This document shows, piece after piece, positions 21,297 through 53,805 of a stretch of DNA of 64,000 nucleotides. A program made the position numbers and the translations under genes. Below the pieces are notes generated by a model. That model worked only from the letters and a program-made list of their open reading frames with translations, did no database searches and had not been told where the DNA came from. Every line of letters begins with the position of its first letter. The stretch's first letter is position 1. This DNA comes from Candidatus Binatia bacterium. Its GTDB lineage: Bacteria; Desulfobacterota; Binatia; HRBIN30. The DNA lies in the NCBI GenBank assembly GCA_023150935.1, contig JAKLJW010000004.1, forward strand, positions 124,001-188,000. The letters run 5' to 3'.

Positions 21297-22622
<1,326 letters not shown>

Positions 22623-22931
22623 TGAGATCAATCACCGTGCCGTCAGCCAGCGGAATCACTTCGTCCCCCGCCGGCCGCTCATCATCTCCATGGATATACC
22701 GCACCACCGCATCCCAAGAGAAGATCGGTCTTCCGCCGGGACCGTGCGGCTTGAAGTAGTGCACGCCGAGCTTGAAGGCGCCGCGCGCCATCATGGTCCG
22801 GATGGCGTCCGGCGTCCACGGCGTGCAGGCCGCAAGCTGCTCGATGTACAGGTACTGGCGCACTGTCGCTCACCGCTCTTCGATTGGCGCCTACAATAGC
22901 CAGCGTCCCCCCTTTCGCCGAGCGTTCCCGT

Positions 22932-23037: not shown

Positions 23038-23067
23038 TTGACGGTTCTCTTCGTCCTCGCGTACAAT
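23038..23067 (+). promoter_or_regulatory. Likely sigma70-type promoter for parAB-rep
   Basis: TTGACG (23038-23043) and TACAAT (23062-23067) are separated by 18 bases. Predicted transcription would start near 23075, which supports the parA ATG at 23102 rather than the in-frame ATG at 23066. Confidence 0.5.
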
Positions 23068-23101
23068 GAACTCGTTTCTTGACACTTTTTACTTCACCCC
23101 G

Positions 23102-23881
23102 ATGAGCACTCTCATCGCCATCGCCAACCAGAAGGGTGGCGTGGCGAAGACAACGACCTGCCTCAACCTCGGCCACGCCATCGCCGAGCAAGGGCGGAAG
23201 GTGCTCCTCTGCGATCTGGACCCGCAGTCGAGCCTCACCATCAGTCTTGGTCTCGACGTCCGCGATCTCGCGGCGACGATCTACGACGTGCTGCTGGAAA
23301 CGAAGCCCGGCATCACGATCAAGGACATCATCCGCCCCACGGCGATGACAAACGTCCACGTCGCGCCGGCGTCGATCGACCTCTCGAAGGCGGAAATGGA
23401 CCTGTTCTCGGAGATGAACCGCGAGCGGGCCTTCAAGGACGCACTGCGGCCTGTTCTCGAGGACTACGACTTCATTCTGATCGACTGTCCCCCGTCGCTC
23501 GGACTCCTCACGACGAACGCGCTGGCCGCCGCGGACGCCGTCTTGATCCCGCTCCAGAGCGATTACCTGGCGATGCGCGGCGCCGAGCTCTTGCTTGCGA
23601 CCATCAACAAGGTCCGCCGCAAGCTCAATCCGCGGCTCTCACTCTTGGGCGTCCTCGTCACCATGTACCACCCCCGCGCCACCCACTCCAAAGACGTCCT
23701 GGCCGAAGTCCGCGCCGCCTTCGGCGACCAAGCCTTCAAGACGGTGATTCCGTACACCGTGCGCGCCAAGGAGTCGGTCGTCACCGGCCGCTCGATCCTC
23801 GATTACGACCCTAAATCACGCCTGGCGGAGTCCTACCGGACCCTGGCCGGAGAAATCCTGTCCCATGCCAAAGCGGCCTGA
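23102..23881 (+). CDS. parA: ParA partition ATPase
   Basis: Nucleoid-associated ATPase for DNA segregation. It has 259 residues from ATG 23102, starting directly at the deviant Walker A motif NQKGGVAKTTTCLNLG, with Walker B-like FILIDCPPSLG near residue 123. It lacks an N-terminal helix-turn-helix, so it is a type Ib or chromosomal-like ParA. It overlaps parB by 17 bases. Presence in an integrated element suggests the excised form is kept as a replicating circle. Confidence 0.94.
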   Translation: MSTLIAIANQKGGVAKTTTCLNLGHAIAEQGRKVLLCDLDPQSSLTISLGLDVRDLAATIYDVLLETKPGITIKDIIRPTAMTNVHVAPASIDLSKAEMDLFSEMNRERAFKDALRPVLEDYDFILIDCPPSLGLLTTNALAAADAVLIPLQSDYLAMRGAELLLATINKVRRKLNPRLSLLGVLVTMYHPRATHSKDVLAEVRAAFGDQAFKTVIPYTVRAKESVVTGRSILDYDPKSRLAESYRTLAGEILSHAKAA

Positions 23882-24707
23882 CATGTCGGGCTTCCGCCTG
23901 CGCATCCTGGGCGGCAGCGAAGAAGACATCGCCCACCCGATCGACACGTTCACGGACGACGCCGACGCCGGCAAAGTCGTGAACGTCCCGGTCAACTCCA
24001 TCACCCCGAACCCCGACCAACCTCGGAAGTACTTCGATCCGCAGGCGCTCGACGACCTCACCGCGTCCATTCGCGAGCACGGCGTCTTGCAGCCGATCAT
24101 TGTCCGCCAAAACGGCGAGAACGGCTTCACGCTCATCGCCGGCGAGCGCCGCTGGCGCGCTTCCAAGAAAGCCGGCCTCTCCAAGATTCCGGTCCTCATT
24201 CGCCAGAAGGAAGACCCGGCCGAGATCGCGCTCATCGAGAACGTGCAGCGCGAGAACCTGAACCCGATCGAAGAGGCCGAAAGCCTGGCGCTGCTCAAGC
24301 AACGCCGCGCCCTCACTGACCAGCAGCTCGCCAACATCGTCGGCAAATCCCGCGTCATGGTCACGGAAAGCCTGAGCCTCACTCGCCTACCGGAGGCGGT
24401 GAAGGAGCAATGTCTGCGCGCAGACACCTACTACTCGAAGCGCCAACTCTTGCAGGTGTTGCGCGAACCCACGCCCGCCGCGCAGCTCGCGCTCTGGGAA
24501 GCCATCCGCGACGGCGGTCTGAGCGGCGGTCAGGCCCGCGCCGTGCGGGCGATGAACCGTGATCGAGGAACGGGCGCCAAGCCCTACGAGCACAAGTACC
24601 ATGCTCAGGACCGTCGGTTCACCGTGCGCGTCACCTTCCGCAAGTCACGACCGACCAAGGACGAGATTCGCCAAGCGCTCGAAGAGGCGTTCAACGAACT
24701 CGCGTAA
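23865..24707 (+). CDS. parB: ParB/Spo0J-family partition protein
   Basis: CTP-dependent DNA clamp that loads at parS. The N-terminal domain has the GERRWRAS motif (around residue 90) and IENVQRENLNPIEEA. The central helix-turn-helix has TDQQLANIVGKSRVMVTESL. The length of 280 residues is typical. The C-terminal segment is basic and short. A 16-bp palindrome within its own coding sequence (24411-24426) is a parS candidate. Confidence 0.94.
   Translation: MPKRPDMSGFRLRILGGSEEDIAHPIDTFTDDADAGKVVNVPVNSITPNPDQPRKYFDPQALDDLTASIREHGVLQPIIVRQNGENGFTLIAGERRWRASKKAGLSKIPVLIRQKEDPAEIALIENVQRENLNPIEEAESLALLKQRRALTDQQLANIVGKSRVMVTESLSLTRLPEAVKEQCLRADTYYSKRQLLQVLREPTPAAQLALWEAIRDGGLSGGQARAVRAMNRDRGTGAKPYEHKYHAQDRRFTVRVTFRKSRPTKDEIRQALEEAFNELA
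24411..24426. promoter_or_regulatory. parS candidate, copy 1 (inside parB)
   Basis: Perfect 16-bp palindrome TGTCTGCGCGCAGACA. The same 16 bases, within a shared 19-base stretch starting CAATGTC, occur at 27366-27381. parS sites are 16-bp palindromes usually within a few kb of parAB. Function is inferred. Confidence 0.55.
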
Positions 24708-24719
24708 CCCCACGCCCCG

Positions 24720-25820
24720 ATGGACCGCCCGGCGAACCAGCCCACCGTCGTCATCAAGCATGCTGGACTGCGTTCGGTTGGCGCGTTCGCCGCGTTTCCC
24801 ACCAACATCATCCGCAATGGCGCGCTCTCTATTGGCGCGCGTCTGACGTACGGCTTGCTCCTCTCCTACGCCTGGCAGCAAGACTTCTGCTTCCCCGCCC
24901 AGGAGCAGCTCGCCAAGGATCTCAGCGTCACCGACCGCCACGTGCGTCGGTTCCTGATCGAGCTGCGCGACAAGAAACTCATCAGCTGGAAGCAGATGGG
25001 ACTCAACCGCCCGAACATCTACTACATCCTCGACATCGAGCCCGCGAACACCGAATCGGAGCCAGAAAACGAGGAGATTTCCAATGAAGACCTGGACCGG
25101 ACATCTATGTCCGGTCCGGAACGGACATCCACGTCCGCCTCGGATCGGACATTGGCGTCCGCTCAAGAACGGACACCTGCGTCCGACTACAAAGACTCAA
25201 AAACAAATAAACATAACGTCGTTAACGACGTTACGCCTAACGACCCAGATGCACCGAGAAGGGAACGCCGACCAACCGGAACGCCGACCATCTCCGACCG
25301 TGCGCTTCGCTCGAAGTATGGGTTTTCCGACGAGCAGATCGGCCAAGTTCACTGGCTCGTGGATCAGCAACTCACGATTCTTGGGCGGTTCAACGAAAAG
25401 GGCCGCGACAACCACCCCAGCTATGTGAAACGCGCCGCCGAAGCCGTGCAGGCCGGCGACCATCAGTTCCTGGCGCACAAGCTCGGGGATTTCAAAGAGG
25501 CGGCGCCGAAGACCAAGACGCCCGTCGGCTCACGACCGGCCTACTTCCACGCCATGTGGACCGAGGCCCTGCAGCAGCGGGACGGGGCTGATTTGGCGCC
25601 GTCCGCACGGGTGTCAAGCGGCACCCCGCACCGCATCGGTGGCCTCTTTCAGACAAACACCGTCGACCGCGACGACAACGAGAACGACAGGATCGCAAAA
25701 CTCGTTGCCGACGCCGAGCGTCGCGGCCACCCCATACCTGCACACATCCGCACCTCGAATAACCTCGCCCAGGTGAGCCGTTGGTGGGCCACATTGGCCG
25801 ACACCGTCCGACGCACCTAA
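24720..25820 (+). CDS. Replication-initiator-like HTH protein with internal iterons
   Basis: A 366-residue protein in an operon with parAB. The N-terminal winged-helix domain (residues 25-105: SIGARLTYGLLLSYAWQQ, VTDRHVRRFLIELRDKKLI, RPNIYYIL) resembles HTH_36 initiators of plasmids. A hydrophilic linker (residues 125-180) is built of four 8-residue repeats of (D/E)RT-type, encoded by 24-bp DNA palindromes. The C-terminal part is unassigned. By analogy with initiator genes that contain their own origin, it probably starts replication of the excised element. The alternative is a transcriptional regulator. Confidence 0.72.
   Translation: MDRPANQPTVVIKHAGLRSVGAFAAFPTNIIRNGALSIGARLTYGLLLSYAWQQDFCFPAQEQLAKDLSVTDRHVRRFLIELRDKKLISWKQMGLNRPNIYYILDIEPANTESEPENEEISNEDLDRTSMSGPERTSTSASDRTLASAQERTPASDYKDSKTNKHNVVNDVTPNDPDAPRRERRPTGTPTISDRALRSKYGFSDEQIGQVHWLVDQQLTILGRFNEKGRDNHPSYVKRAAEAVQAGDHQFLAHKLGDFKEAAPKTKTPVGSRPAYFHAMWTEALQQRDGADLAPSARVSSGTPHRIGGLFQTNTVDRDDNENDRIAKLVADAERRGHPIPAHIRTSNNLAQVSRWWATLADTVRRT
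25097..25233 (+). other. Putative replication origin inside the initiator gene
   Basis: Four palindromic units with a 24-bp period: 25097-25114, 25122-25137, 25146-25161 and 25170-25185, each with outer CGGAC and GTCCG arms. An AT-rich stretch follows (25186-25216, about three quarters A+T in a GC-rich genome), then a perfect palindrome TAACGTCGTTAACGACGTTA (25214-25233). Iterons next to an AT-rich unwinding region are the standard layout of an initiator-dependent origin. Confidence 0.6.
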
Positions 25821-27127: not shown

Positions 27128-27731
27128 CGGTTCACCCTCCGGTTCGGGCCGGGCGAGCGAAGGGACATCCCTAACTCGGGCCGGCCTGGACGAAGGGCGA
27201 GGAAAGATCCTTTCGAAGCGGGACTTTGGGTCGCCGTCGGGAATAGGCCTGAGAGCTCGTATACGCGCGTCAGCGCGTTCTTGATTGCTGCCGTGAGAAA
27301 AGGGGCCACGCGAGCAATTTGAGCAGCAATGGCCGTAACAGGCAGGCCAAGGGCGACCGCATCAATGTCTGCGCGCAGACATCGCGACGTTGAACGTTGC
27401 GGGGACAGCCGCTCGCCCTCCCTCCCCCGTCGGCCACCGACGGAAAGCGGATTGACGTCGAGGCCCCTTGACGTTGACGACGCCGCGCCGCCGTTAGGGC
27501 TTGTCAGTCTAGCGGCCCCGGCGCCCACCGCGGGCGGTCGCGCCCGCGGTCAGAGGAACGGGCGCCGCACCTCGCCGCGTCAAGACTCGTTCGTCCGGTG
27601 GGGCGCTCCAATCTTGACTCGGCGAGGACTCCGGCCGCTGCCTTCAAGCCCTGCGAACGGCGGCCGAACCGGCGTTGCGGGTGACGCCGCCGTCGCACCT
27701 TACAAACTGCAACGAAAGGGGGTGACGCACT
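27128..27731. other. Noncoding region with parS candidate and dyads
   Basis: 604 bp with no convincing gene. It holds the second 16-bp palindrome (27366-27381), a perfect 10-bp stem with a GTCG loop (27527-27550), and a 15-bp inverted repeat with one mismatch (27571-27585 and 27612-27626). Frames through it, including an extension of the 27917 gene, lack codon-usage or family support. It may be a centromere or control region. Confidence 0.45.
27366..27381. promoter_or_regulatory. parS candidate, copy 2
   Basis: The palindrome TGTCTGCGCGCAGACA, identical to 24411-24426. Here it lies in noncoding DNA, so its conservation is not imposed by a protein. Confidence 0.55.
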
Positions 27732-30786: not shown

Positions 30787-32070
30787 ATGAATTCCACACC
30801 CAAGAGGGGCGCTTCGTCAAGTGGGCCGTCGGCCGCGCGCGGGAACGGTGCCGCGCATCCCGCGGGCGACATTGATGATGACGTGTTCGTCCTCGGCGAC
30901 GACGACGTGGTGCCGGAGCCTCGACGAGGCATCCAGGCCAACGCGTTTGGTGCACTCGCCGACCGCGGAGATGTCGGCGTTCTCGTTGAGACGACCATGC
31001 AGGCCCGTCTCGACGAATTGGCGAAGGAGACCGCCCCGGTCAAAGTCTCCGGTCTCTTCCCCCGTTTGGTGCGGCTGCTCTTCGGACCGTCGGGCAAGCG
31101 CGAACGCCTCAACGCCACCGACCAGGCTCGCGCCGCGATTCGTGAGGCAACGTCCCTGACCAAAGAGGCCACGAAGTTTGTGGCCGCTGGCAACAAGCTC
31201 AACGGCCAGCGCATCAAGCGCGCCAACACGAGAGAGTACTACGACCTCGCCCGCGAGAAGATCGCCGCTGACACCTCAGCCGCGCGCGTCCAGCGAGCCC
31301 GCTCAGAAGCCGAGATTCACGAGCTGGAGACGCGTCCCGACAAAGAAGCCGAAATCCGCCGTCGGGTTGAGGAAACCACCACCGCGCTGAAACGCGAGGC
31401 AGACGCGTTGGTGCAACGCGCCCGAACAGAGGCCGCCGCCGAAATCAAAGCGTTGAAGCAGGATGCCGCGACGGTCCTCCGCGCGCTGGAGCGCGATCGC
31501 GATGACGAGATCGTGAAGGTGCGCAACGCCGGGCTCGAGCTCATGGCCGCCATGCAGCGACTCGAAGCCGATCGCCAGCACGCCGTGGGACGCGTCACCG
31601 AGATGGAGCAGCGGATTGCAGAGTTGAAGGAGCAAGCCATCCAAGCGGCCTGGGTGGCGGAGGAGCAGCGGCAGCGCGCGGAGCGCCTGCAAGCCGAAGT
31701 GCACCGCCTGACCGCGGAGATCGAGCGGCTGAATGCACCGGCACACCTTCGCGAGGAGACGTGCGCCAACGCGCGCGTGCGCACTGAGATGGCGAAGGCC
31801 GACGCCGAGATCGCCAAGTACCGCGCAGAGGCCAAGCAGGGGCAACGCAAAGAAGCGTCGTCCGGAGCCGCCGGGTACGCCACCAAGGTCCGCAAACGCT
31901 GGCGCCAAGCACAGCGCCGCCAGCGCGTTCTCGACGAGTTCCGGCGCGAAGCCAGCCAGGACCTGGCAAAGACTGCCGCACAGTTCGGCGAAGACAGCGA
32001 GGAGTATCGGAACCAGGCCAACACGTTCGACGCGTTGCAACAGGAGTTCGAAGAGGAGGGACAGTCATGA
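30787..32070 (+). CDS. Long coiled-coil protein, partner of the VirD4-like ATPase
   Basis: A 427-residue protein starting at ATG 30787 after AAAGGAG. The acidic N-terminus (DIDDDVFVLGDDDVVPEP) and a short middle domain precede a continuous charged coiled coil from about residue 110 to 340 (RRRVEETTTALKREADALVQ and similar heptads). The C-terminus is basic then acidic. No transmembrane segment is apparent. Its stop overlaps the ATPase start by four bases, so the two are co-translated and probably interact. Confidence 0.7.
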   Translation: MNSTPKRGASSSGPSAARGNGAAHPAGDIDDDVFVLGDDDVVPEPRRGIQANAFGALADRGDVGVLVETTMQARLDELAKETAPVKVSGLFPRLVRLLFGPSGKRERLNATDQARAAIREATSLTKEATKFVAAGNKLNGQRIKRANTREYYDLAREKIAADTSAARVQRARSEAEIHELETRPDKEAEIRRRVEETTTALKREADALVQRARTEAAAEIKALKQDAATVLRALERDRDDEIVKVRNAGLELMAAMQRLEADRQHAVGRVTEMEQRIAELKEQAIQAAWVAEEQRQRAERLQAEVHRLTAEIERLNAPAHLREETCANARVRTEMAKADAEIAKYRAEAKQGQRKEASSGAAGYATKVRKRWRQAQRRQRVLDEFRREASQDLAKTAAQFGEDSEEYRNQANTFDALQQEFEEEGQS

Positions 32071-34427
32071 AACGCAAACCCTTGGTCATTGGTACGATCC
32101 GCGGCACCAACGAACCTTTAATCCTGACGCCGAGTGCACGTTCCACCGGCGTCCACATCATGGGGGCGCCCGGCAGCGGGAAGTCAAGACTCCTAGAGCA
32201 TATCGGCCGTTACGACATTCGTAGCGGGAACGGGCTCTTGGTCATCGACCCGCATGGCGACTCCGTCCGCGAGCTCACGCGCTTCGGCGCTCGTTATCGG
32301 CTCCGCCGCAACATTTACGTCTTGGACGTAAGCTCCGGCGATCAGGTGCTCGGGCTCGACTGCTTTGGTCCGCAGCCCGGGACCGACATCTCGACGCGAG
32401 TTGAGCGTGCCGTCAACGCCAGCCTCAAGGCATGGAGCGTCGACGATCCGAACCAGACGCCGCGCATGCTTCGTTGGCTTCGAAACACGTTCACCGTTGC
32501 CATCGAAGCTCACCGGTCGGTGCCGGAGCTCGCACCGCTCTTTGAGTTCGGGAACGAGGCGGTGCGGCGGTACCTGACGCGAAACACGTCCGTCGCGACC
32601 GAGTGGGAAGCCTTGAATCAGCTGCGCACCCTCAGTCAGTTCGACGACCAAATCCAGTCGACTAAGAACCGCCTCGATGCGCTGACGCGCTCGCGGACCA
32701 CGCGGCGGTTCTTCGCGATGACCGAACCGACGCTCACCCTCAACCTGGCGCGCGCCATGGACGCCGGCGACATCATCCTGGTGAATCTCCAGCCATCGCC
32801 GAACCTCGACCCGCGGAACGCTCGATTGTTCGGGTCGCTCTTGGTGTCGCAGGTGTTCGACACGCTGCGGCAGCGCGTTGCGCGACGCGGTCGCCCGCTA
32901 CGGCCGTTCTCCGTGATCATCGACGAAGCGCAAAACTTCCTGTCGAGCGACATCCCGGAACTCTTCGCGCAGGGCAGAAAGTACGGACTCTACCTCACCA
33001 TCGCCCATCAGTTTGCGCAGCAGATGCGCGAAGAGGACGAGCGGGTCTGGGCGGCGTTGAACGGTGCTGCCCGCACCAAGATCCTCTTCGCCGTCGGCAG
33101 CGACGCCGATGCCAAGGAAATGGTGCACGAGATGTTCCCCGGTCAGATCAACTACACCGAGGTGAAGCATCGCACCTGGCAAACGAAGTTTCGGCCGGTG
33201 CAGGGGTGGGTGGAAACGACTAGTCAGACCGTAGGCGGCAGCAGCGGCACGACGCGTGGTACCGACGAATCTCGTGGCCACTCGGTGAGTCACGGAACGA
33301 GCCGGAGCGCCACGCACACGACGGGCAAGAGCACCGGCCACACGACCGGGCACGACGTCGGCCACAGCGACAGCGTGACCGAAAGCCACAGTCAGGCGCA
33401 CGCTCACGGGAAGACGGCCGGTTGGTCGGTCGGTCGCACCGTCGGCCACGCACGATCGACCGCAGTCTCGGACGCTACGTCCGAGACGTACACGGACGGG
33501 CACAGCCGGACCTCGGGGGTGTCCCATGCGGAAGGGGTGACGCATGCCCTCGGTCACGCCATCGGCCAAAGCCAGGCGGGCAGCGCCACGCGCTCGCTCG
33601 ACGCGGACGGCAACGTCCTCGTGAGCGCAACCGACGGGGACGGCTCGTCGATTGTCGCCGCCGAGACGTCCGGCATCTCGAGTGTCGACACCGCAAGCGA
33701 GAGCGAGACCGAATCGGAAAGCCACTCCGTCGGGACCAGCCACGTCGAGACACACGCTGAGTCGGAAAGCGAGTCCGAGTCCGCCGCATGGTCCGAGTCG
33801 GAATCGGAGACCGAGACGGATACGGACGGACGGTCCGAGGGCAGAAGCGATTCAGAATCGTGGTCGGAGTCCGACACCGAGACGGACTCAGAAAGCCACG
33901 CCGAGACGGACGGCACGTCGCGGGCCTCGACTGAGAGCCGGACGAACGGCTCCAGCCGGAGCCGTTCCGAAGGTCGCAATTGGTCCAAAGCGGTGAGCCG
34001 CGTCCCGATCACGGGCCACCAAGAGTTTTCTGAGCGGATAGACGAGTTTCACACGCTCGAAGAGCAACGGCAGCGCGCCGCCGATGCCCTCCGTTTGCAG
34101 CCGCAACGCGTGTTTACGATTCGGACGCCGGACGGCCGCGCCTGCCAAGTGGAGGCGCCATTCATTCCGCCGATTCGCCTGTCGGACCACATCGTGGACG
34201 CTTACCGCGCCGAGTTGTCCCGGAAGACCGGCGCGCTATCCGCGGCCGTCGTCGACGCGCTCATCGACGACAAAGTCCAACGGCTCCACCAGGAGGCCGC
34301 CACTTTTGACGCCCAGGAAACCGAGCCCGTACACTTGATTGGAAAGGACGATGACACCCACCCACCCATCACGCTCAATCCCGGACGCCGCCGCCAAGCG
34401 GCTTCCCGCCGGACGCGTCGGTCGTAA
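32067..34427 (+). CDS. HerA/VirD4-type DNA-translocase ATPase with Ser-rich insertion
   Basis: A 786-residue P-loop ATPase. Walker A GAPGSGKS is at residues 33-40, followed by VIDPHGDSVRELTRF. Walker B is SVIIDEAQNF near residue 285, followed by a TraM/TraD-like GRKYGLYLTIAHQF sensor region. Residues 381-643 are an extraordinary low-complexity insertion dominated by Ser with His/Gly/Thr first and Glu/Asp later (ESESESESAAWSESESETET). A C-terminal domain of about 140 residues follows. It probably moves element DNA during transfer. It lacks N-terminal membrane helices, unlike classical VirD4. Confidence 0.85.
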   Translation: MKRKPLVIGTIRGTNEPLILTPSARSTGVHIMGAPGSGKSRLLEHIGRYDIRSGNGLLVIDPHGDSVRELTRFGARYRLRRNIYVLDVSSGDQVLGLDCFGPQPGTDISTRVERAVNASLKAWSVDDPNQTPRMLRWLRNTFTVAIEAHRSVPELAPLFEFGNEAVRRYLTRNTSVATEWEALNQLRTLSQFDDQIQSTKNRLDALTRSRTTRRFFAMTEPTLTLNLARAMDAGDIILVNLQPSPNLDPRNARLFGSLLVSQVFDTLRQRVARRGRPLRPFSVIIDEAQNFLSSDIPELFAQGRKYGLYLTIAHQFAQQMREEDERVWAALNGAARTKILFAVGSDADAKEMVHEMFPGQINYTEVKHRTWQTKFRPVQGWVETTSQTVGGSSGTTRGTDESRGHSVSHGTSRSATHTTGKSTGHTTGHDVGHSDSVTESHSQAHAHGKTAGWSVGRTVGHARSTAVSDATSETYTDGHSRTSGVSHAEGVTHALGHAIGQSQAGSATRSLDADGNVLVSATDGDGSSIVAAETSGISSVDTASESETESESHSVGTSHVETHAESESESESAAWSESESETETDTDGRSEGRSDSESWSESDTETDSESHAETDGTSRASTESRTNGSSRSRSEGRNWSKAVSRVPITGHQEFSERIDEFHTLEEQRQRAADALRLQPQRVFTIRTPDGRACQVEAPFIPPIRLSDHIVDAYRAELSRKTGALSAAVVDALIDDKVQRLHQEAATFDAQETEPVHLIGKDDDTHPPITLNPGRRRQAASRRTRRS

Positions 34428-38748: not shown

Positions 38749-39053
38749 GGTTGGAACCTTTTACGAAAGGTGCGCAGCGCGCGCTTGGCGTGAAATTCAC
38801 GCTCTTGCTCCACTCGAAGCATGAAGAGATCGAGGATCACCTCGTAGAAGTCCGCGACCCCGCGAAGCTGCTGGGGATCGTCCCCGGCCCGAGCGAGCAG
38901 CTCGCGCGCATCCCGCCGCGCGTCGGCCACGAGATCTCGCATCGCACTGAAGTCCTCCACGATCCGTGTCGACGCTTCGCCCACGCCGCGCCGAATGGCT
39001 TCAGCACATTCGATCCAGCCCCGTCGGTAGTCTTCAGAAACGTCTTGCTCCAT
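38745..39053 (-). CDS. Hypothetical helical protein (102 residues)
   Basis: An acidic then basic helical protein (EDYRRGWIECAEAIRRGVGE, ADFYEVILDLFMLRVEQERE). No family recognised. It is preceded on its own strand by a copy of the structured leader (39069-39117), showing that this RNA motif also serves genes other than radC-linked ones. Confidence 0.6.
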   Translation of the reverse strand: MEQDVSEDYRRGWIECAEAIRRGVGEASTRIVEDFSAMRDLVADARRDARELLARAGDDPQQLRGVADFYEVILDLFMLRVEQEREFHAKRALRTFRKRFQP

Positions 39054-39068
39054 CGCCTCATCCCCCGA

Positions 39069-39117
39069 ACGGTTCCGCGTCTCGGCCCGGCGACATGCCG
39101 GAGTCGCGTGGAACCGA
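39069..39117 (-). promoter_or_regulatory. Structured 5' leader motif, copy 4 (minus strand)
   Basis: Read leftward: TCGGTTCC (39117-39110), ACGCGA (39109-39104), hairpin CCGGC-ATGTC-GCCGG (39101-39087), closing GGAACCGT (39076-39069). The outer stem differs in sequence from the other copies but still pairs at 7 of 8 positions. The gene start follows at 39053. Confidence 0.65.
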
Positions 39118-39475
39118 CGCGAGGGACAAGGGTGAGCTTCCTCGACTCGTCACAGCCTGCACCCGCACGGTCGAATCCGTCAAGGGATGTCCAACCCACG
39201 GAACGACATGGCCATCCGCCGTCGCCTCTGCCGCGTTTTTCCGAAACGCGGTACACTATTTTCCACCAGCTCGTCAGCGTGATCGCCGGCGCTCGTGAAT
39301 TCCGACCGCGGTTGCCCTCAGGCAGGGGGCTTGCGGGCACGGATTGGCCCGGCTGTGGAGCCGGTCCGGGCTTTCCGCCGTCGCCACCACAGCCGGCGGG
39401 GGCAGCCCCCACTTCATCAGGAGGGGGGTGAAAGTCCCGGCGATCGCACGCGCTGGTTCCCGTCACTTCTAACCG
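39118..39475. other. Intergenic region before the S74 surface-protein gene
   Basis: About 360 bp, divergent between the leftward pair and the rightward surface-protein genes. Contains GGTACACT (39250-39257), a promoter-like box seen at other element genes, and GC-rich dyads. Frames here are short and unconvincing. Confidence 0.35.
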
Positions 39476-39547: not shown

Positions 39548-42500
39548 ATGGCCCCGCGTCTCGATGCGGCACCGTCCGCCATCCTCGCCTACCAGGGTCG
39601 CCTCACGGACCCTGCGGGCGCCATCCTCGTCGGCAACTACTTCGTGCGCTTCTCAATCTACACGGACGACACCGTGGGCGCTCCGGACCTCAAGCTCTGG
39701 CCCACAGGCACGCCTTCCGCGATGCCGGTCACCGTCACGAACGGCGTCTTCAACGTCGGCATCGGCGACACGGCCGGAAACGGTGACGCCCTCACCCTCG
39801 ATTTCGAATCGAACAGCGCCTACTACCTCCAGGTCGAAGTCTCCTCGAACGGCTCGACGTTCGAGACCCTCACCCCTCGTCAGCGCCTTGACGTCGCAAG
39901 CTACGCGGTCAACGCCGATACCGTGGACGGCGCCCACGCGGGCACGAGCGCGAACAACGTCCTCGAGCTTGGTAATTCCGGCGAGATCAGTATCTCCGGG
40001 TTCATCAGCACCTTGAGCCGCCTCATTCTTGGTTCATCACTCGGCGCCGGGGGCGGCACGGCGCTCCTCGTCAACACCGCCGCACCGTTTGATGGCACGC
40101 TCCTCAATCTCCAGGTAAACGGCTCGTCGCGAGTATCCGTGGCGAGCTCCGGGCTCCTCACCGCCACGAACGGCCTGACCGTTTCCGGCGGCTCTGTGAG
40201 CTTTCCCGCCGGCTCCATCACCGACTCCGCCATCGCTTCCGCGCTGACGGGCAAGACCTACAACGGCCTCTCGCTTACGAGCGCGGCCGACGGGTTCACT
40301 ATCGCTGGCGGCACGACATCTCGTACCCTCACCGTGTCCGGAGCCGACGTCTCCCTCAACCAGAACCTCCTCACGACGTCCTCGCCAACGTTCACCGCAA
40401 TCAACGCCAAGACCATCCAGTCCACGAGTAACGACCTCCGTATTTCCGGGGCGAGCGGCCAAGGCATAACCGTCCTGACGGACGGGGTGAGCGACGCTGC
40501 CTACATCGCAGGCGATATCCGTGACTCACAGAACAATCCGTACGCGCCAGAAACAAAGGCCACCGTCGCCGGCGCCTACTGGTTCGACGCCCGCTACGGC
40601 ATCAGAACCAACGCGACCGACAGCGTCGCCAAGAACGTCTACCTCTCGGGGCAGAATCAGCGGCTCAACAACGCCACAAACCTCTCCGGTGGCGACGTGC
40701 TCATCCACGGCGGTCTTGGCGCGAGCGGTTCTGCCGGTGCCGCCCATGGCGGCAACGTGAAAATCGATGGTGGACAAGCCTTTGGGACGGGGCACGCCGG
40801 CCACGTCCTCATTGGCACGGAGCAAGCGAGCGACGTCGGCATCGGAACATCCGATCCGCTGGAGAAACTCCACGTTGCTGGCCAAGGAAGTGACGTGGCT
40901 GTCGCGATTTTGAGCGGCGCCGATGCGACGAATGGAAGTCTGAAGGTTGGCGAGCTTGCCAACAGCCTCGGGTATCTCAACTATGACGGCACCGACAATC
41001 GTTGGGAGTTCGGCACAGAGTACAACAGCGCAGCAACCGAGGCGTTTTACATCGTGCGCGGCTCGCAGACCGTGTTCTTCAACGGCACCGTCGACGTCAC
41101 GACCACGCTGAATGTGCGACAGTCTCTATACGCCGGAGCTGGAACCATTGATGCTGGCGTTTCTAACATGATCAACAACTTCCAAAACAATACCGGACTT
41201 CTAATCAAGCCGACGGCGGCAGGTACCGGAACCCGGGTTTCGGTCGTCGACGAGAACGGAGACAGCGAATTCATTGTGAAGGACGGCGGCAACGTCGGCA
41301 TCGGTACCGCTGATCCTGCCGAGAAATTGACTGTTGCCGGGAACGTCTCCGCCACCGGAACAGCGACGTTCCAGCACCTCTACCTCACCCAGGGTGCCCT
41401 CAATGGATCTAACCTCATTGCGCCCACCACCACCGATGGTGCCGACCAGGAGTCCATCAAAATCGGTGGTGGTGGCTTGCCCGGCCAACCGTCGCGCGGC
41501 CCGTCGCTTGAACTCTACGGGAACGAAGTGAGCGGCTTTAACCTCTACGGAGACGCCGTTATTCGGCTTGGTGACGGGGACGGTGCCACGTACAAGGGTG
41601 ATTTCCGCATCTTCGGTAGCAGCGACCTCTTCGTCGTGAAGAACGACGGGTCGGTCGGCATCGGCGACACAAGTCCATCATCTAAGCTAGTCGTCAATAG
41701 CGCCTCCTTCTTCAGCCCGTCCCTAACGTTCAATTCAGCTGCTCACTTCAATTTGAAGACTGGCGGAGGCGAGTTGGTTGGCGGGGAACAAGCGGGTTCT
41801 CCCTATGGCTTCTGGTTGCAGTCCAGGAGCTGGGCAAGCACGGCGTTCCCGCTCATGTTGAATCCCCTCGGTGGCAACGTAGGTATAGGTACGACCAGCC
41901 CGACCGGTACACTCCACGTGTCCTCCGAGGTCCCCCAGATTATCGTCGACAACCCGACGGGCGGTGCGAGCGAATTGGCACGGCTCCAGTTTTCCAAGAA
42001 CGGAACGGCCAAGTGGTACCTCGATGCCCGCAACGGCAACGAAGGCTTAGGTGACGACCTCTGGATCGCGGACACCTCCAACAACTACTTCGTTTTCGAT
42101 GATGGCACGGGTAGGTTTGGCATCGGCACTACCGGCCCATCCGACAAACTTCACGTCTCCGGCGGCGAGATCCGCACCAACTCCTGCGTGAAGAATTCCG
42201 GCGGCACCGCCATCGCCGGCACCTGTTCCTCCGACGAGCGTCTGAAGCAGAACATTCGGTCCCTCGACGTCTCTCTCGACGACATCGTGGCCCTCGACCC
42301 CGTGACCTATGAGTGGCGCGCTGACGAGTATCCCGAGTTCTCCTTCGGATCCGGCACAAACATCGGACTCGTGGCTCAGCAGGTTGAAGGCCACATCCCC
42401 GAACTTGTCGCCGAGGGCGAGCACGGCTTCAAGGCGGTGAAGTTTCAAGAGCTGCCGTTCTACCTGCTCCAGGGCCTCAAGGAACTGCGCCTCGAAGTCC

Positions 42501-42715
42501 AAGAACTCGCCACCCAAACGACTGCCGCGACCGCTACCGGTTTCACCGGCCTCCTCGACTGGCTGCGCGACAAGTCGATCAGCGTCGCGGGCCTGACCGT
42601 GGGCTCGAACGATCGTCCCTCTGGCGTCACCACCTACGACCGCTCAACGGGCGAACCATATTGCCTCGCCGTCGACAACGGCCAGCCGACGATCACGCCT
42701 GGAGTTTGCCCGTAA
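39548..42715 (+). CDS. Large surface protein with C-terminal S74 (ICA) self-chaperone domain
   Basis: 1055 residues from ATG 39548. The frame is open back to 39473 and encodes a typical signal peptide (RRTPFFTAALVALLALGG) if translation begins at a non-AUG codon such as CTG 39485. A beta-rich stalk carries five GIGTT-type repeats near residues 428, 581, 700, 776 and 855 (e.g. NVGIGTTSPTGTLHVSS). The C-terminal peptidase S74 chaperone starts at SSDERLKQNI near residue 893, with the catalytic Ser/Lys pattern. Such domains trimerise tail fibres and adhesins, then cleave themselves off. No phage genes are nearby, so an adhesin-like role is inferred. Confidence 0.85.
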   Translation: MAPRLDAAPSAILAYQGRLTDPAGAILVGNYFVRFSIYTDDTVGAPDLKLWPTGTPSAMPVTVTNGVFNVGIGDTAGNGDALTLDFESNSAYYLQVEVSSNGSTFETLTPRQRLDVASYAVNADTVDGAHAGTSANNVLELGNSGEISISGFISTLSRLILGSSLGAGGGTALLVNTAAPFDGTLLNLQVNGSSRVSVASSGLLTATNGLTVSGGSVSFPAGSITDSAIASALTGKTYNGLSLTSAADGFTIAGGTTSRTLTVSGADVSLNQNLLTTSSPTFTAINAKTIQSTSNDLRISGASGQGITVLTDGVSDAAYIAGDIRDSQNNPYAPETKATVAGAYWFDARYGIRTNATDSVAKNVYLSGQNQRLNNATNLSGGDVLIHGGLGASGSAGAAHGGNVKIDGGQAFGTGHAGHVLIGTEQASDVGIGTSDPLEKLHVAGQGSDVAVAILSGADATNGSLKVGELANSLGYLNYDGTDNRWEFGTEYNSAATEAFYIVRGSQTVFFNGTVDVTTTLNVRQSLYAGAGTIDAGVSNMINNFQNNTGLLIKPTAAGTGTRVSVVDENGDSEFIVKDGGNVGIGTADPAEKLTVAGNVSATGTATFQHLYLTQGALNGSNLIAPTTTDGADQESIKIGGGGLPGQPSRGPSLELYGNEVSGFNLYGDAVIRLGDGDGATYKGDFRIFGSSDLFVVKNDGSVGIGDTSPSSKLVVNSASFFSPSLTFNSAAHFNLKTGGGELVGGEQAGSPYGFWLQSRSWASTAFPLMLNPLGGNVGIGTTSPTGTLHVSSEVPQIIVDNPTGGASELARLQFSKNGTAKWYLDARNGNEGLGDDLWIADTSNNYFVFDDGTGRFGIGTTGPSDKLHVSGGEIRTNSCVKNSGGTAIAGTCSSDERLKQNIRSLDVSLDDIVALDPVTYEWRADEYPEFSFGSGTNIGLVAQQVEGHIPELVAEGEHGFKAVKFQELPFYLLQGLKELRLEVQELATQTTAATATGFTGLLDWLRDKSISVAGLTVGSNDRPSGVTTYDRSTGEPYCLAVDNGQPTITPGVCP

Positions 42716-43462: not shown

Positions 43463-44389
43463 GTGCCGGCGATGGTTGCGCGGCAGGGTGATCGGGCGGC
43501 TTGGCGGTTCATCGAGTTCTTCACCGCCAACATTCGGAACCCGAACACGCGTCGGGCGTACGCGCGAGCCGTTGGCGATTTCTTCCGCTGGTGCGAACAG
43601 CGCCGCGTTCGCGACGTCGCGCAGATCAACCCGACGCTCGTCGCCGCGTACGTCGAGCACCGCAGCCGCACGCACGCCAAGCCGACCGTGAAGCAAGAAC
43701 TCGCAGCGGTGCGGATGCTCTTCGACTGGCTCGTCGTCGGCCACGTGATGGACGCCAGCCCCGCGCACGCCGTCCGCGGACCGAAACACGTCATCAAGCG
43801 CGGCAAGACGCCGGTGCTTACGCGCGAAGAGACGCGCGAGCTTTTAGACGCCATCGAGACCAACGACATCGCCGGCCTTCGCGACCGCGCGTTGATCGGC
43901 TTGCTCGTCTTCAGCTTCGCCCGCATCGGCGCCGCGCTGTCCCTGAAGGTCGACGACTACTTCCCCGAGGGCAAGCGCTGGAAGCTGCGGCTGCACGAGA
44001 AGGGCGGCAAGGAGCACGTCGTCCCCGTTCACCACACCCTTGAGGAGTACCTCGACGCCTACATCCACACGGCCCGCATCCGCGATCAGGCGGGCGGTCC
44101 CCTCTTCAGGACACTGGCCACTGCCCCCGGCAGGCCGCTATCGCTGAAGTCGATGAGTCAGCCGGACGCGTGGCGCATGATCCGCCGGCGCGCTCGCGCC
44201 GCGGGAATCCCGACGAAGATCGGCTGCCACACGTTCCGCGCCACCGGCATCACCGCCTACCTCGAGAATGGTGGCACCCTGGAGCACGCCCAGCAGATCG
44301 CCGCACACGAATCGCCGCGCACAACCAAGCTCTACGACCGCACCACAGACCAAGTCAGCCTCGACGAGATCGAGAGGATTGCGATCTGA
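43463..44389 (+). CDS. Xer-like tyrosine recombinase (second recombinase)
   Basis: 308 residues, GTG start. A SAM-like N-terminal domain (NPNTRRAYARAVGDFFRWCE) precedes a catalytic domain with Arg in SFARIGAAL, Lys in LHEKGGKEHVVPV, HTFRATGIT, IAAHESPRTT and nucleophile Tyr in LYDRT. All catalytic residues are present. It lacks the arm-binding domain of the element integrase. Similar proteins are common in accessory regions. It lies between the surface-protein genes and the metal cluster, which suggests one of these blocks was a separate insertion. Confidence 0.9.
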   Translation: MPAMVARQGDRAAWRFIEFFTANIRNPNTRRAYARAVGDFFRWCEQRRVRDVAQINPTLVAAYVEHRSRTHAKPTVKQELAAVRMLFDWLVVGHVMDASPAHAVRGPKHVIKRGKTPVLTREETRELLDAIETNDIAGLRDRALIGLLVFSFARIGAALSLKVDDYFPEGKRWKLRLHEKGGKEHVVPVHHTLEEYLDAYIHTARIRDQAGGPLFRTLATAPGRPLSLKSMSQPDAWRMIRRRARAAGIPTKIGCHTFRATGITAYLENGGTLEHAQQIAAHESPRTTKLYDRTTDQVSLDEIERIAI

Positions 44390-44905: not shown

Positions 44906-44996
44906 TTTCATCGTCCCCCGATCAGCCGCCCTAGCTCCGGCGCCGGACGCAGCTGCGCTCGGCGCCCCCTCTTCTTCGTTCCACGGGGTGACCACG

Positions 44997-46283
44997 ATGA
45001 GGCGCTCTCAAGGCAGGCTCGTCCTGCTGCTACTGTTCGATGTTCTTTTTGCCATTCCTGCGACCGCTGCTGACCTCCCGTCGCCAGCGGGGCCGCTCAC
45101 GCTCCGCGAAGCACTCGCCACAGCGCTGCTAGGAAGTCCCGAACTCGCTGTTTTCTCGTGGGAACTCCGCGCAAAGGAGGCAGAGGTCCTGCAAGCCGGC
45201 CTGCTTCCTAACCCGGAGCTGAGCACCGAAATCGAAGACTTCGGTGGGACCGGCGACCGCCTCGCTTTCGAGCAGACTCAGATCACGGTCAGCCTGGCGC
45301 AGCTCATCGAGCTCGGTGGCAAGCGAGCCAAACGATTGCGGCTCGCAGCCCTCGACCGTGATCTGGCCACGTGGGACTACGAGGTCGCACGCCTCAATGT
45401 CGTTGCCGGCGTCAGCAAGGCCTTCACCGCGACGCTCGCCGCGCAACAGCGCCTGCAGCTATTCGGTGAGCTGGTGGGGCTGGCGCGCCGATCCGTCGCC
45501 GCGGTTGCCACACAGGTCAAGGCGGGCGCCACGTCTCCCGTCGAACTCATGCGAGCGGAGGCCGCGCTAGGGCGAACCGAAACTCAACTCCGGCAAGCCG
45601 AGCGGGATCTTGCCAATGCTCGCACCGCACTTGCGGTCACCTGGGGAAGCGCCACCCCCGGTTTCACCGCAGCCGTCGGCGATCTCGTCCCAGTTATCAC
45701 TCCCCCGTCCGTCGGGAATCTCCTGGACGCGATTCAGAGCAATCCCGACGTGGCGCGCTGGGTTACGGAGATCGAGCAGCGCACGGCTGCCCTCGCCGTC
45801 GAGAAGGCTCGCGCCATCCCCAGTCTCACCGTGGGCCTCGGGGGACGCCAGTTCACGGATAACGGCGACAAGGCGCTCGTAGCAGGCTTCTCGCTTCCGC
45901 TTCCGCTCTTCAACCGCAATCAGGGCAACATCCTCGCAGCTGACCGGTGGTTGGCCCAAGCCGAAGCAGCACGCGACCGTGCGACGGTCGCCATACAGCG
46001 AGCACTCGCTGCCGCCTACGAAGACCTGCGTGCGGCATACGCGCAAGTCGTCACACTGCGCGACGAGGTGCTCCCGAAGGCCGAGGGCGCCTTCGCGGGC
46101 GCGCGCGACGCTTACCAGCGCGGGTTGTTGCGCTTTCTCGACGTGCTCGACGCGCAGCGCACTCTCTTCGAAACCAGAGATCAATACGTACAGACGCTGG
46201 CCGCCTACCACATCGCGGCGGCCGACATCGAGCGCCTGAGTGGAATTCCACTCACTGGCACCGACTTGGAGGAAGGAAAATGA
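44997..46283 (+). CDS. czcC: CzcC-type outer-membrane efflux protein
   Basis: TolC-family channel of a tripartite metal exporter. Signal peptide (LVLLLLFDVLFAIPATAA) then two repeats of the outer-membrane factor fold: SLAQLIELGGKRAKRLRLAA and FSLPLPLFNRNQGNILAADR. 428 residues from ATG 44997. Its stop overlaps czcB by four bases. Confidence 0.9.
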   Translation: MRRSQGRLVLLLLFDVLFAIPATAADLPSPAGPLTLREALATALLGSPELAVFSWELRAKEAEVLQAGLLPNPELSTEIEDFGGTGDRLAFEQTQITVSLAQLIELGGKRAKRLRLAALDRDLATWDYEVARLNVVAGVSKAFTATLAAQQRLQLFGELVGLARRSVAAVATQVKAGATSPVELMRAEAALGRTETQLRQAERDLANARTALAVTWGSATPGFTAAVGDLVPVITPPSVGNLLDAIQSNPDVARWVTEIEQRTAALAVEKARAIPSLTVGLGGRQFTDNGDKALVAGFSLPLPLFNRNQGNILAADRWLAQAEAARDRATVAIQRALAAAYEDLRAAYAQVVTLRDEVLPKAEGAFAGARDAYQRGLLRFLDVLDAQRTLFETRDQYVQTLAAYHIAAADIERLSGIPLTGTDLEEGK

Positions 46284-47218
46284 TCGCAGCTCGCTTTCTC
46301 GCGCATGCGCTCCTCGTCGCTGCGCTCGTTGCCCGGGCGGCCTTGGCTGAAGAAGAGCACAGCCGCCACGATCACAGCGACAGTGAGAGCACCGAGGATC
46401 ATGATGACGACCACGCGATTCGCCTGACCGCTGCGCAGCTCGCTGCCTTCGGCGTCACAGTCGCGACCGCCGGCCCGGCCAAGATCGACCACGGGGTCGA
46501 GTTGCTCGGTGAAGTCCGTCCGAATGGCGACACTCTCGCCCACATCGTTCCGCGGTTTCCCGGGATCGTCCGTCAGGTCCGCGCCACCGTGGGAGACGAG
46601 GTCCGGGCGGGCAATGTCCTTGCCACCATCGAGAGCAACGAGAGCTTAGCCCCGTATGAGCTCAAGACGCAGCTCGACGGGACCGTCATCGAGCGGCACA
46701 TTACCCGTGGGGAATCCGTCGACCGCGAGAAGCAGGCCTTCGTCATCGCTGATCTGTCCTCGGTCTGGGTCGACCTCGCCGTCTATCAGAAAGATCTCGA
46801 TCACGTCCGTGTCGGCCAGAGTGTGCTCGTCTCTTCAGGTTCGGCTGAGGCGGAAGGGAAGATCTCCTACATCGCCCCCGTCGTCGACGAGCCGACGCGC
46901 ACGGCAATCGCACGCGTCGTTTTGCCCAACCCCGAGCACGCTTGGCGTCCGGGCCTGTTCGTCACCGCCAGGGTTCTTGATCCGATTCCGGCGGAAGTGG
47001 CGATCGAGCGTAGCGCCATCCAAACCATCGAGGGCCGCGCCACCGTTTTCGTCGAAGCCCGCGAAGGCTTCGAGCCTCATCCGGTGACGCTCGGGCGCAC
47101 CGGCGAGACGCTCGTCGAAGTCCTCGACGGCCTCGGTGCTGGCACTCGCTATGTCGCCACCAATTCATTTCTACTCAAAGCTGAGCTCGGCAAGGGCGAG
47201 GCCGAACACGAACACTGA
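46280..47218 (+). CDS. czcB: CzcB-type membrane-fusion protein
   Basis: Periplasmic adaptor (312 residues) joining CzcA and CzcC. Signal peptide, then a His/Asp-rich metal-binding stretch (SRHDHSDSESTEDHDDDH, residues 28-46), barrel-sandwich domain (VPRFPGIVRQVRATVGDEV) and beta-barrel region. It is shorter than most family members, with little of the helical hairpin. The true start at 46280 overlaps czcC. Confidence 0.9.
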   Translation: MIAARFLAHALLVAALVARAALAEEEHSRHDHSDSESTEDHDDDHAIRLTAAQLAAFGVTVATAGPAKIDHGVELLGEVRPNGDTLAHIVPRFPGIVRQVRATVGDEVRAGNVLATIESNESLAPYELKTQLDGTVIERHITRGESVDREKQAFVIADLSSVWVDLAVYQKDLDHVRVGQSVLVSSGSAEAEGKISYIAPVVDEPTRTAIARVVLPNPEHAWRPGLFVTARVLDPIPAEVAIERSAIQTIEGRATVFVEAREGFEPHPVTLGRTGETLVEVLDGLGAGTRYVATNSFLLKAELGKGEAEHEH

Positions 47219-47231
47219 ACGGAGGCCTGTG

Positions 47232-50200
47232 ATGCTTGAACGTGTGCTCAAGTTTTCCGTCGAGCACCGCGCCTTCGTGGTGCTCGTAACCCTCGTGGCA
47301 GCTGCTCTTGGCGTCGTGTCGTTGCTTCGCCTCCCCATCGACGCCGTCCCTGACATCACCAACAATCAGGTGCAGATCAACGCAGTTGTCCCCTCGCTGT
47401 CGCCGGTCGAGATCGAGAAGCAGGTGACCTTCCCGATCGAGACCGCCCTGGCTGGCATCCCCGGCCTCGAGTACACACGATCGCTCTCGCGGAACGGTTT
47501 CTCTCAGGTCACGGCCGTCTTTGGCGATGACGTCAATATCTACTTCGCCCGACAACAAGTGACGGAACGGCTCGCCGAGGCCCGGGAAAAGCTCCCGCCC
47601 GGTGCCGAGCCGCGCCTTGGCCCGATCTCCACTGGTCTCGGCGAAGTCTACATGTGGACAGTCGAGTACGCGCACCCGGACGGGCGCGGCGCGACGGTGG
47701 AGGATGGACAGGCTGGCTGGCAGAGCGATGGCACCTATCTCACGCCCGAAGGCGAGCTGCTCCGCACCGACGTGGAGCGCGCCTCGTATCTCCGTACGGT
47801 TCAGGATTGGATCATCCGGCCGCAGATGAAAAGCGTGCCGGGGGTGGCAGGAGTGGACGCCATCGGCGGCTACGTAAAGCAGTACCACGTCCAGCCAGAC
47901 CCGAGAAAGCTGGTCGCCTACGGCCTGACCTTCGGGGATCTCCTGTCTGCTCTCGAGCGCAACAATCTGAGCACGGGTGCCGGCTACATCGAGCACAATG
48001 GCGAGTCCTATGTTGTGCGCGCGACGGGCCGCGTCGAGCGGCCCGAACAAATCGCAGCCATGGTGATCGGCGAGCGGTTCGGCACGCCCATCTACGTGCG
48101 CGATGTTGCCACGGTCGGCCAGGGTCGCGAGCTGCGGACCGGTAGCGCCAGCGAGAATGGCGAAGAGGTAGTGGTCGGCACTGCCCTCATGCTCATCGGC
48201 GCCAACAGCCGTACCGTCTCCGCCGCTGTCCATGAACGTATGACCGAGGTGAACCGCACGCTGCCCCCTGACATTCACGCCAAGACCGTGCTCAACCGGA
48301 CGGCCCTTGTCGATGCGACGATCCGGACAGTCGAGCGCAACCTCGTCGAAGGCGCGGTGCTCGTTGTCGTTGTGCTCTTTGTGCTCCTAGGACACTTCCG
48401 CGCTGCCCTGATCACTGCCCTGGCCATCCCACTCTCCATGCTCTTCACCGCCATTGGCATGGTGCAGACCAAGACGAGCGGCAACCTCATGAGCCTCGGT
48501 GCCATCGATTTCGGCCTCATCGTCGACGGAGCGGTGATCATCGTCGAGAATTGCCTGCGCCTCTTGGCGGAGAAGCAGCACAGCCTCGGCAGGCCGCTCA
48601 CCCTTCAGGAGCGAATCGCCGTCGTCTTTCAAGCCAGCAAACAGGTGCGCAGCGCCACGGCCTTCGGCGAAGCGATCATCATGATCGTCTACGTACCGAT
48701 TCTCTTTCTCACTGGCGTAGAGGGGAAGATGTTCCGGCCGATGGCCCTCACGGTCATCTTCGCCCTGGCTGCGGCCTTCGTGCTCTCGCTTACCTTCGTG
48801 CCCGCGATGGTGGCGCTCTGCGTCACCGGCCGCGTCGTCGAGCGAGAGAACATCCTCATCCGGTTGGCCAAACGCTTCTACGACCCCGTCCTGACGTTCG
48901 TGTTGCGAGCCCGCGTGCTCGTCGTTGCCACCGCCGTGGTCGTGTTCGCGGGCTCGCTGCTGCTCTTCGCGCGTCTGGGGCAGGAGTTCGTTCCGACCTT
49001 GAGCGAGCTAGACTTCGCTGTTCACGCCATCCGCATCCCCAGTACCAGCCTCTCCCAGTCCACCGACATGCAATTTGCCGTCGAGCGGACGATCAAGGGC
49101 TTGCCGGAAGTCTCATTCGTATTCTCAAAGACCGGTACCGCAGAGATCGCTGCCGATCCGATGCCGCCGAACGTCTCCGACACGTTCGTCGTCCTCAAGC
49201 CGAGGGAAGAGTGGCCCAACCCAAGCGATACTAAGGAAGACGTCCGGCGCCGGATCGAGGAGACTATCGACCAGCTGCCCGGCAACAACTACGAGTTCAC
49301 GCAACCGATCCAGATGCGCTTCAACGAACTCATCGCCGGTGTCCGCGGCGATGTTGCAGTGAAGGTGTTCGGAGACGACTTCACCTCTATTCTGCCGGCC
49401 GCTGAGCAGATTGCCTCCATCTTGCGCGATACGCGCGGTGCCGCCGATACCCGTGTGGAGCAGATTACAGGTCTGCCCACGCTCAGTGTCGACGTCGACC
49501 GGGCGGCCATCGCACGCTACGGGCTGACTGTCGCGGACGTCCAGGACGTCGTCTCGATCGCCATCGGCGGACGCGAGGCCGGCCTCGTCTTCGAGGGCGA
49601 CCGCCGCTTCGACATCGTCGTTCGCCTACCGGAGCAGTTCCGCCGCAATCTGCACGCCCTGGAGAACCTGCCTGTGCCGCTTCCCCCGCACGAGGAGGAA
49701 GCTGTGCGCACGGTAGTGCACGGCGATGAAACGGCTCGCCCAGGATTCAATTTCCTACCCCTTGGTGCGGTCGCCCGCATCAACGTCACAGAAGGCCCCA
49801 ATCAGGTCAGCCGGGAGAACGGCAAGCGACGCATCGTAGTACAGACGAACGTTCGCGGGCGAGACATCGGTTCCTTCGTCGAGGAGGCGCAAGCGCGCAT
49901 CCAGCGAGACGTGAAGCTGCCATCCGGGAGCTGGCTATCGTGGGGCGGACAGTTCCAGAACCTAGTGGAAGCAAAGCAGCGTCTGACTCTCGTGGTACCG
50001 GCGTGCTTTCTGCTCATCTTCCTGCTTCTCTATCGAACCTTCGGATCAGTCCGGGACGCACTGCTCGTCTTCTCCGGCGTACCGCTCGCGCTCACGGGCG
50101 GCATCGTCAGTTTGTGGCTGCGCGACATGCCGTTCTCCATCTCGGCAGCCGTGGGTTTCATCGCCCTCTCGGGTGTTGCTGTCCTGAACGGCCTCGTGCT

Positions 50201-53782: not shown

Positions 53783-53805
53783 GGGTTCAAGTCCCCCTCC
53801 TCGCA
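53783..53805 (+). repeat. Right attachment site (attR core)
   Basis: Exact copy of the 3' 23 bases of tRNA-Leu (21358-21380). No tRNA 5' half is present here, so this is an attachment remnant and not a second gene. Confidence 0.9.

Follow-up and report, generated by a model that had tools for sequence, protein, structure and literature searches.

The replication origin of the phage lambda is located inside its O initiator gene (PMC7466680; PMC3349717), and those of the Gram-positive plasmids pSK41 and pPR9 are also inside initiator genes (PMC5703833). In the lambda record, four iterons (39034-39118) are followed by 40 bp at 77.5% A+T and a 22-bp imperfect palindrome. In the case of pPR9, the C-domain has stayed fixed while the HTH_36 N-domain and the origin were exchanged together as one module (PMC5703833). 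That is, initiator-embedded origins are already established, a point on which the earlier note on the DNA described here was silent.

We analyzed a 64-kb stretch of DNA (hereafter, the window) in which a palindromic array lies within the coding sequence of a predicted replication initiator gene, rep. We think that the segment 25098-25233 is very probably the replication origin of a 32.4-kb element that is integrated at tRNA-Leu, carries int, parA, parB and rep, and holds this origin within its own initiator gene. This reading, made from sequence and by analogy, is based on the anatomy of the segment, on a conservation of its DNA that exceeds what the peptide requires, on the initiator family, and on the borders of the element. 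The features are listed in Table 1.

Table 1. Positions in the window of the features of the element and of the putative origin.
Feature	Position	Strand	Remarks
tRNA-Leu(gag), integration site	21297..21381	+	attL in its 3' end, 21358-21380
Tyrosine integrase	21324..22631	-	overlaps tRNA-Leu 3' end; Phage_integrase, Arm-DNA-bind_2
parA, partition ATPase	23066..23881	+	AAA_31 1.8e-61
parB, partition protein	23865..24707	+	ParB_N, HTH_ParB, parB_part
Candidate parS TGTCTGCGCGCAGACA	24411..24426		perfect 16-bp palindrome, inside parB
rep, predicted replication initiator gene	24720..25820	+	HTH_36 match, PHROG families, AlphaFold model, Foldseek top match 5kbj
Predicted layout of Rep			HTH_36 winged-helix N-domain, about aa 20-104; disordered linker, aa 108-189; helical C-domain, aa 190-366
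Iteron 1 CGGACATCTATGTCCG	25098..25113		extended palindrome 25094-25117
Iteron 2 CGGACATCCACGTCCG	25122..25137
Iteron 3 CGGACATTGGCGTCCG	25146..25161
Iteron 4 CGGACACCTGCGTCCG	25170..25185
A+T-rich stretch, presumed DNA unwinding element	25186..25215		77% A+T
Perfect 20-bp palindrome TAACGTCGTTAACGACGTTA	25214..25233		P=5e-4 given its peptide
Second copy of candidate parS TGTCTGCGCGCAGACA	27366..27381
attR	53783..53805		23-bp exact repeat of tRNA-Leu 3' end

Each of the four iterons (25098-25185, 88 bp) has the core CGGAC-N6-GTCCG, and the period is strictly 24 bp. The array is followed by 28 bp at 75% A+T and then by the 20-bp palindrome. The earlier note described four 24-bp palindromic units at this place; the four palindromes and the 24-bp period stand, but the palindromic core is 16 bp, and the 24 bp is the period of the repeat. 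When extended, iteron 1 forms the palindrome GGACCGGACATCTATGTCCGGTCC, whose 11-bp arms are the longest among the palindromes found in the window. The note also placed an A+T-rich stretch and a perfect palindrome of 20 bp in the linker-coding part of rep, and both were located there. Its statement that the DNA period equals eight codons, so that the repeat is visible as (D/E)RT peptide units, agrees with the translation of iterons 1 to 4 (DRTSMSGP, ERTSTSAS, DRTLASAQ and ERTPASDY).

The pattern CGGAC-N6-GTCCG was seen five times in the window against an expected number of 0.32, and none of 100 shuffles reached five. Throughout the 5.3-Mb genome it occurs at 25 places, four of which are within the 88 bp of the array, and the reversed control pattern occurs at 16. 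The period of eight codons and the predicted disorder of the linker would also suit a mere peptide repeat. That is, the linker may have grown by tandem duplication of eight codons, a single chance palindrome would thereby have become four, and the DNA palindromes would be a by-product. In a synonymous resampling, in which the linker peptide was fixed and codons were drawn from local usage, the 20 of 20 arm matches of the window array were reached in none of 60,000 draws. The 19 of 20 arm matches in the array of L012, a related rep gene, were likewise reached in none of 60,000, and the three perfect palindromes of another relative, L014, gave P=6e-4. A phased scan of entire genes (five periods by five spacers, codons permuted within the gene) picked period 24 and spacer 6 in the window rep (codon 127, P=1e-4), in L012 (codon 121, P=1e-4) and in L014 (codon 123, P=0.02). 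Among 13 control genes, one gave a low value (a TraG-like gene with a Ser/Glu repeat, P=0.005), because the null ignores the local reuse of codons in peptide repeats. The phased scan misses ori-lambda, of which the iteron spacing is irregular, and ori-lambda was also missed by gene-wide counts of palindromes or half-sites, which are underpowered.

The columns of the array show the same tendency. As the earlier note had remarked, the arms are kept while the middle codons vary: all 10 arm columns are the same in each of the four units, compared with 3 of 14 others (P=1.5e-4). The Thr residue that opens the spacer is encoded by ACA in all four units, and ACA makes up 4.7% of Thr codons. Both the invariance of the arms beside mostly diverged columns and the repeated use of a rare codon argue against the mere repetition of a peptide. 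The palindromes with other arms in L012 and L014 argue against it as well, and the out-of-frame repeats of L013, described below, contradict it. We therefore consider that a peptide repeat is a very unlikely explanation, and that the array and palindromes of the window go beyond peptide constraint.

Four full-length members of the rep family were found, in four genomes of the class, and one more member that is cut by a contig end. No relative was found in viral contigs, in plasmids searched with the window protein or in the first scan of genome contigs, and a second scan of genome contigs gave the L013 record alone; the family thus looks rare. L012, which comes from the same order and has 46-48% identity, possesses CGAC-N6-GTCG units with 24-bp spacing, of which three are perfect and one is broken. 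L014 possesses three CGGAA-N5/6-TTCCG units at 23-24 bp. Both arrays are at the same place as that of the window, while the linker peptides have diverged and the arms are altered on both sides together. The expectation, expressed in the earlier note, that the palindromes would persist despite divergence of the linker was borne out, as period, spacer and place are kept in both relatives.

L013, which belongs to the same taxonomic family, shares its C-domain and A+T stretch with the window rep. Its N-domain is Phage_rep_O (39.9 bits, compared with a cutoff of 28.7), and L031 is also above this cutoff. The linker of L013 contains four GTCCG-AAAAT-CGGAC-like A-tract copies that are exactly 23 bp apart, and L031 is alike. 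Since 23 is not a multiple of three, the copies of L013 are read in three frames, and they are translated as KSD, ENQT, KIGH and KSDT. That is, the DNA repeats but the peptide does not, and therefore a peptide repeat cannot be what is conserved. These repeats offer a clean proof, from sequence only, that selection in such linkers acts on DNA and not on peptide. Among distant HTH_36 homologues, L037 (G338), L039 (G171) and L043 (G222) possess linker palindromes or repeats and then A+T-rich DNA; an example from the L039 linker is CGGAAAAATTTTCCG. No clear linker palindromes or tandem repeats were seen in L033, L034 and L036, distant HTH_36 homologues of the phylum, and the distant HTH_36 homologues of the phylum were left out as proof.

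The A+T-rich stretch of the window has the highest A+T content of any 30-mer across the whole 32-kb element. In all four complete genes of the family, the 30 bp richest in A+T (70-73%; gene mean near 40%) come directly after the array. The third-position A+T of this stretch exceeds the demand of the peptide in each of the four genes (P=1.6e-4 in the window, and 2.9e-3, 3.4e-3 and 5.3e-3 in the others). These values also bear on the idea that the palindromes bind Rep for autoregulation, as an operator or a transcriptional roadblock, and not for replication. Such regulation would suit Rep, which possesses a winged-helix DNA-binding domain and whose own gene contains the sites. However, an adjoining A+T stretch with a third-position A+T excess fits an origin and not an operator, no iteron copy was found near the parA promoter, the one further copy in the window (55955) falls beyond the borders of the element, and the close precedents are origins. 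We judge autoregulation in place of replication to be clearly unlikely, although the two roles could coexist.

The inverted repeats might also be regarded as RNA hairpins in the rep mRNA for control of translation or of the transcript, as the segment folds much better than its shuffles (z about -7). Such good folding, however, is expected of any palindrome. The arm sequence is identical across the units, which a protein site needs but hairpins do not. Furthermore, the folding of L014 is weak (z -1.8), the predicted folds differ among the homologues, and the Rfam matches were tRNA only. Hairpins are thus an extremely improbable explanation of the array.

The properties of Rep are consistent with an origin in this segment. 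Its N-domain is above the Pfam cutoff for HTH_36 (29.2 bits, cutoff 25), and PHROG profiles of replication initiation and O-like proteins cover residues 22-182. Pfam RepA_N (PF06970) gave no match with the window Rep (the L012 N-domain scored 13.7 bits, cutoff 30), and the score of the window Rep for Phage_rep_O (PF04492) was 12.4 bits, below the cutoff of 28.7. The sequence of the L012 N-domain matches the RepA_N initiator structures 4pql, 5kbj and 4pt7 (E 2e-6). In a Foldseek search with the model of the window Rep, 5kbj, a Rep-DNA complex, ranked first (E 9e-3, low TM); the E value is weak because the model is mostly linker. The AlphaFold model shows a folded N-domain, a helical C-domain and a disordered part between them, which is the part encoded by the iteron array and the A+T stretch. 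These sequence matches and models support the identity of the product as an initiator, and suggest a resemblance between its N-domain and the domain by which RepA_N plasmid initiators bind DNA (PDB 5kbj, 4pql). The earlier reading of an origin-like array inside an initiator gene is supported by the homologues and by the sequence and fold of the initiator. The C-domain alone had no recognisable relative in sequence or fold searches, so that recruitment of a helicase by this domain gains no support from them.

The borders of the element (21358-53805, 32.4 kb) are marked by the integrase at the tRNA gene and by the far direct repeat of the tRNA 3' end, and pgk and tpi are in its left flank. Besides parA, parB and rep, the element carries genes for a TraG/TraD-like ATPase, a Replic_Relax protein, an RND efflux set, VKOR-DsbA and a P-type ATPase. 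The RND efflux set (44988-50531) together with VKOR-DsbA and the P-type ATPase possibly confers metal resistance. A second tyrosine recombinase gene (43463-44389) is located inside the element just ahead of the efflux genes, which suggests a nested insertion. The C-terminal half of the TraG/TraD-like ATPase (32067-34427) is interrupted by a long low-complexity insertion rich in His, Ser, Glu and Thr (33260-34000). In this otherwise plasmid-like element, a 1055-aa ORF (39548-42715) has a C-terminal Peptidase_S74 endosialidase-chaperone domain, which is usual in phage tail spikes. The element of L014 has the same layout, with an integrase at tRNA-Glu and then parA, parB, rep and Replic_Relax; no attR was found within the 19 kb examined.

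The 20-bp palindrome is perfect and is 0.5 kb from parB, and might therefore be the parS centromere of the adjacent ParA/ParB, in which case the segment would serve partition. The palindrome inside parB is the better candidate for parS. It has two copies in the entire 5.3-Mb genome, both within 3 kb of rep, and three related parB genes have, at the corresponding codons, palindromes similar to it of the form TGTC-N8-GACA (TGTCGGTCGTCCGACA, with one mismatch, TGTCAGACGTCTGACA and TGTCGGACGTCCGACA); a second copy of this type is at 12421 in L022. No known parS motif was found near rep. The 20-bp palindrome is present in a single copy in the window and, as such, is not kept in L012, L013 or L014. 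Judging from these sequences, the palindrome inside parB is likely to be parS, and the partition role of the 20-bp palindrome is highly improbable.

If the segment is the origin, the integrase would excise the element, and theta replication would then begin. By analogy with lambda O and the Rep proteins of pSK41/pPR9, dimers of Rep may use the winged-helix N-domain to occupy the four CGGAC-N6-GTCCG iterons, the Rep-iteron complex would melt the adjoining A+T-rich stretch, and the C-domain of Rep might recruit the host helicase or primase machinery. We incline, by a modest degree, to a wider view of parA-parB-rep as a cassette in which both cis-sites are inside the genes of their reader proteins, so that moving the coding sequences would move a complete replicon. 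In such a cassette, the DNA-binding domain would be swapped together with its iterons as a single module, either HTH_36 and CGGAC-type palindromes or Phage_rep_O and 23-bp A-tract iterons, while the lineage-specific C-domain would stay constant. The putative double embedding, with parS in parB and the origin in rep, and the out-of-frame repeats are what is unusual here. The close relatives may be regarded as natural experiments, since their half-sites differ (CGGAC, GCGAC and CGGAA) and in one case the same C-domain even bears a swapped N-domain, so that site recognition could be studied separately from host recruitment. The origin-inside-initiator design would extend to an uncultivated proteobacterium-like lineage and its integrative elements.

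Compared with lambda O and ori-lambda, the putative origin is likewise situated between the N- and C-domains of the initiator, its four palindromic iterons, A+T-rich stretch and palindrome come in the same order and at similar size, and the family includes a member, L013, with a true Phage_rep_O N-domain. In contrast, the window N-domain is below the Phage_rep_O cutoff, no relationship was detected between the C-domain and lambda O, the iterons are regular at 24 bp with GC-rich arms, and rep belongs to a parAB operon carried by an integrative element. The iterons of lambda and RepA_N systems usually have a central A-tract, whereas the centres of the window iterons do not. The repABC plasmids are alike in having partition genes upstream of an initiator gene, repC, with an A+T-rich origin inside (PMC3155836), but repC is without iterons, while the array in the window rep is clear, and Rep is not RepC (the L012 N-domain scored 13.9 bits, cutoff 24.4). 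The RepA of Vibrio PLE, a satellite in a Gram-negative host, is also a RepA_N-like initiator that belongs to an integrated element and is found outside Firmicutes, but the PLE origin is noncoding and not within a gene (PMC7145576). The RepA_N plasmids pSK41 and pPR9 differ in that the window Rep is not Pfam RepA_N by score, its C-domain is without a detected relative, and its host is GC-rich and proteobacterium-like, with an integrative element bearing ParA/ParB. They are alike in the three-part initiator, the origin-encoded linker with four Rep boxes and the lineage-specific C-domain, and in the N-domain and origin being swapped together on the same C-domain; pPR9 is also Pfam HTH_36 (PMC5703833). 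Two marks of the embedded-origin design of lambda O and RepA_N are seen in the window rep: tandem repeats resembling binding sites, in the part of the coding sequence that joins two folded domains, and an A+T-rich stretch adjoining these repeats.
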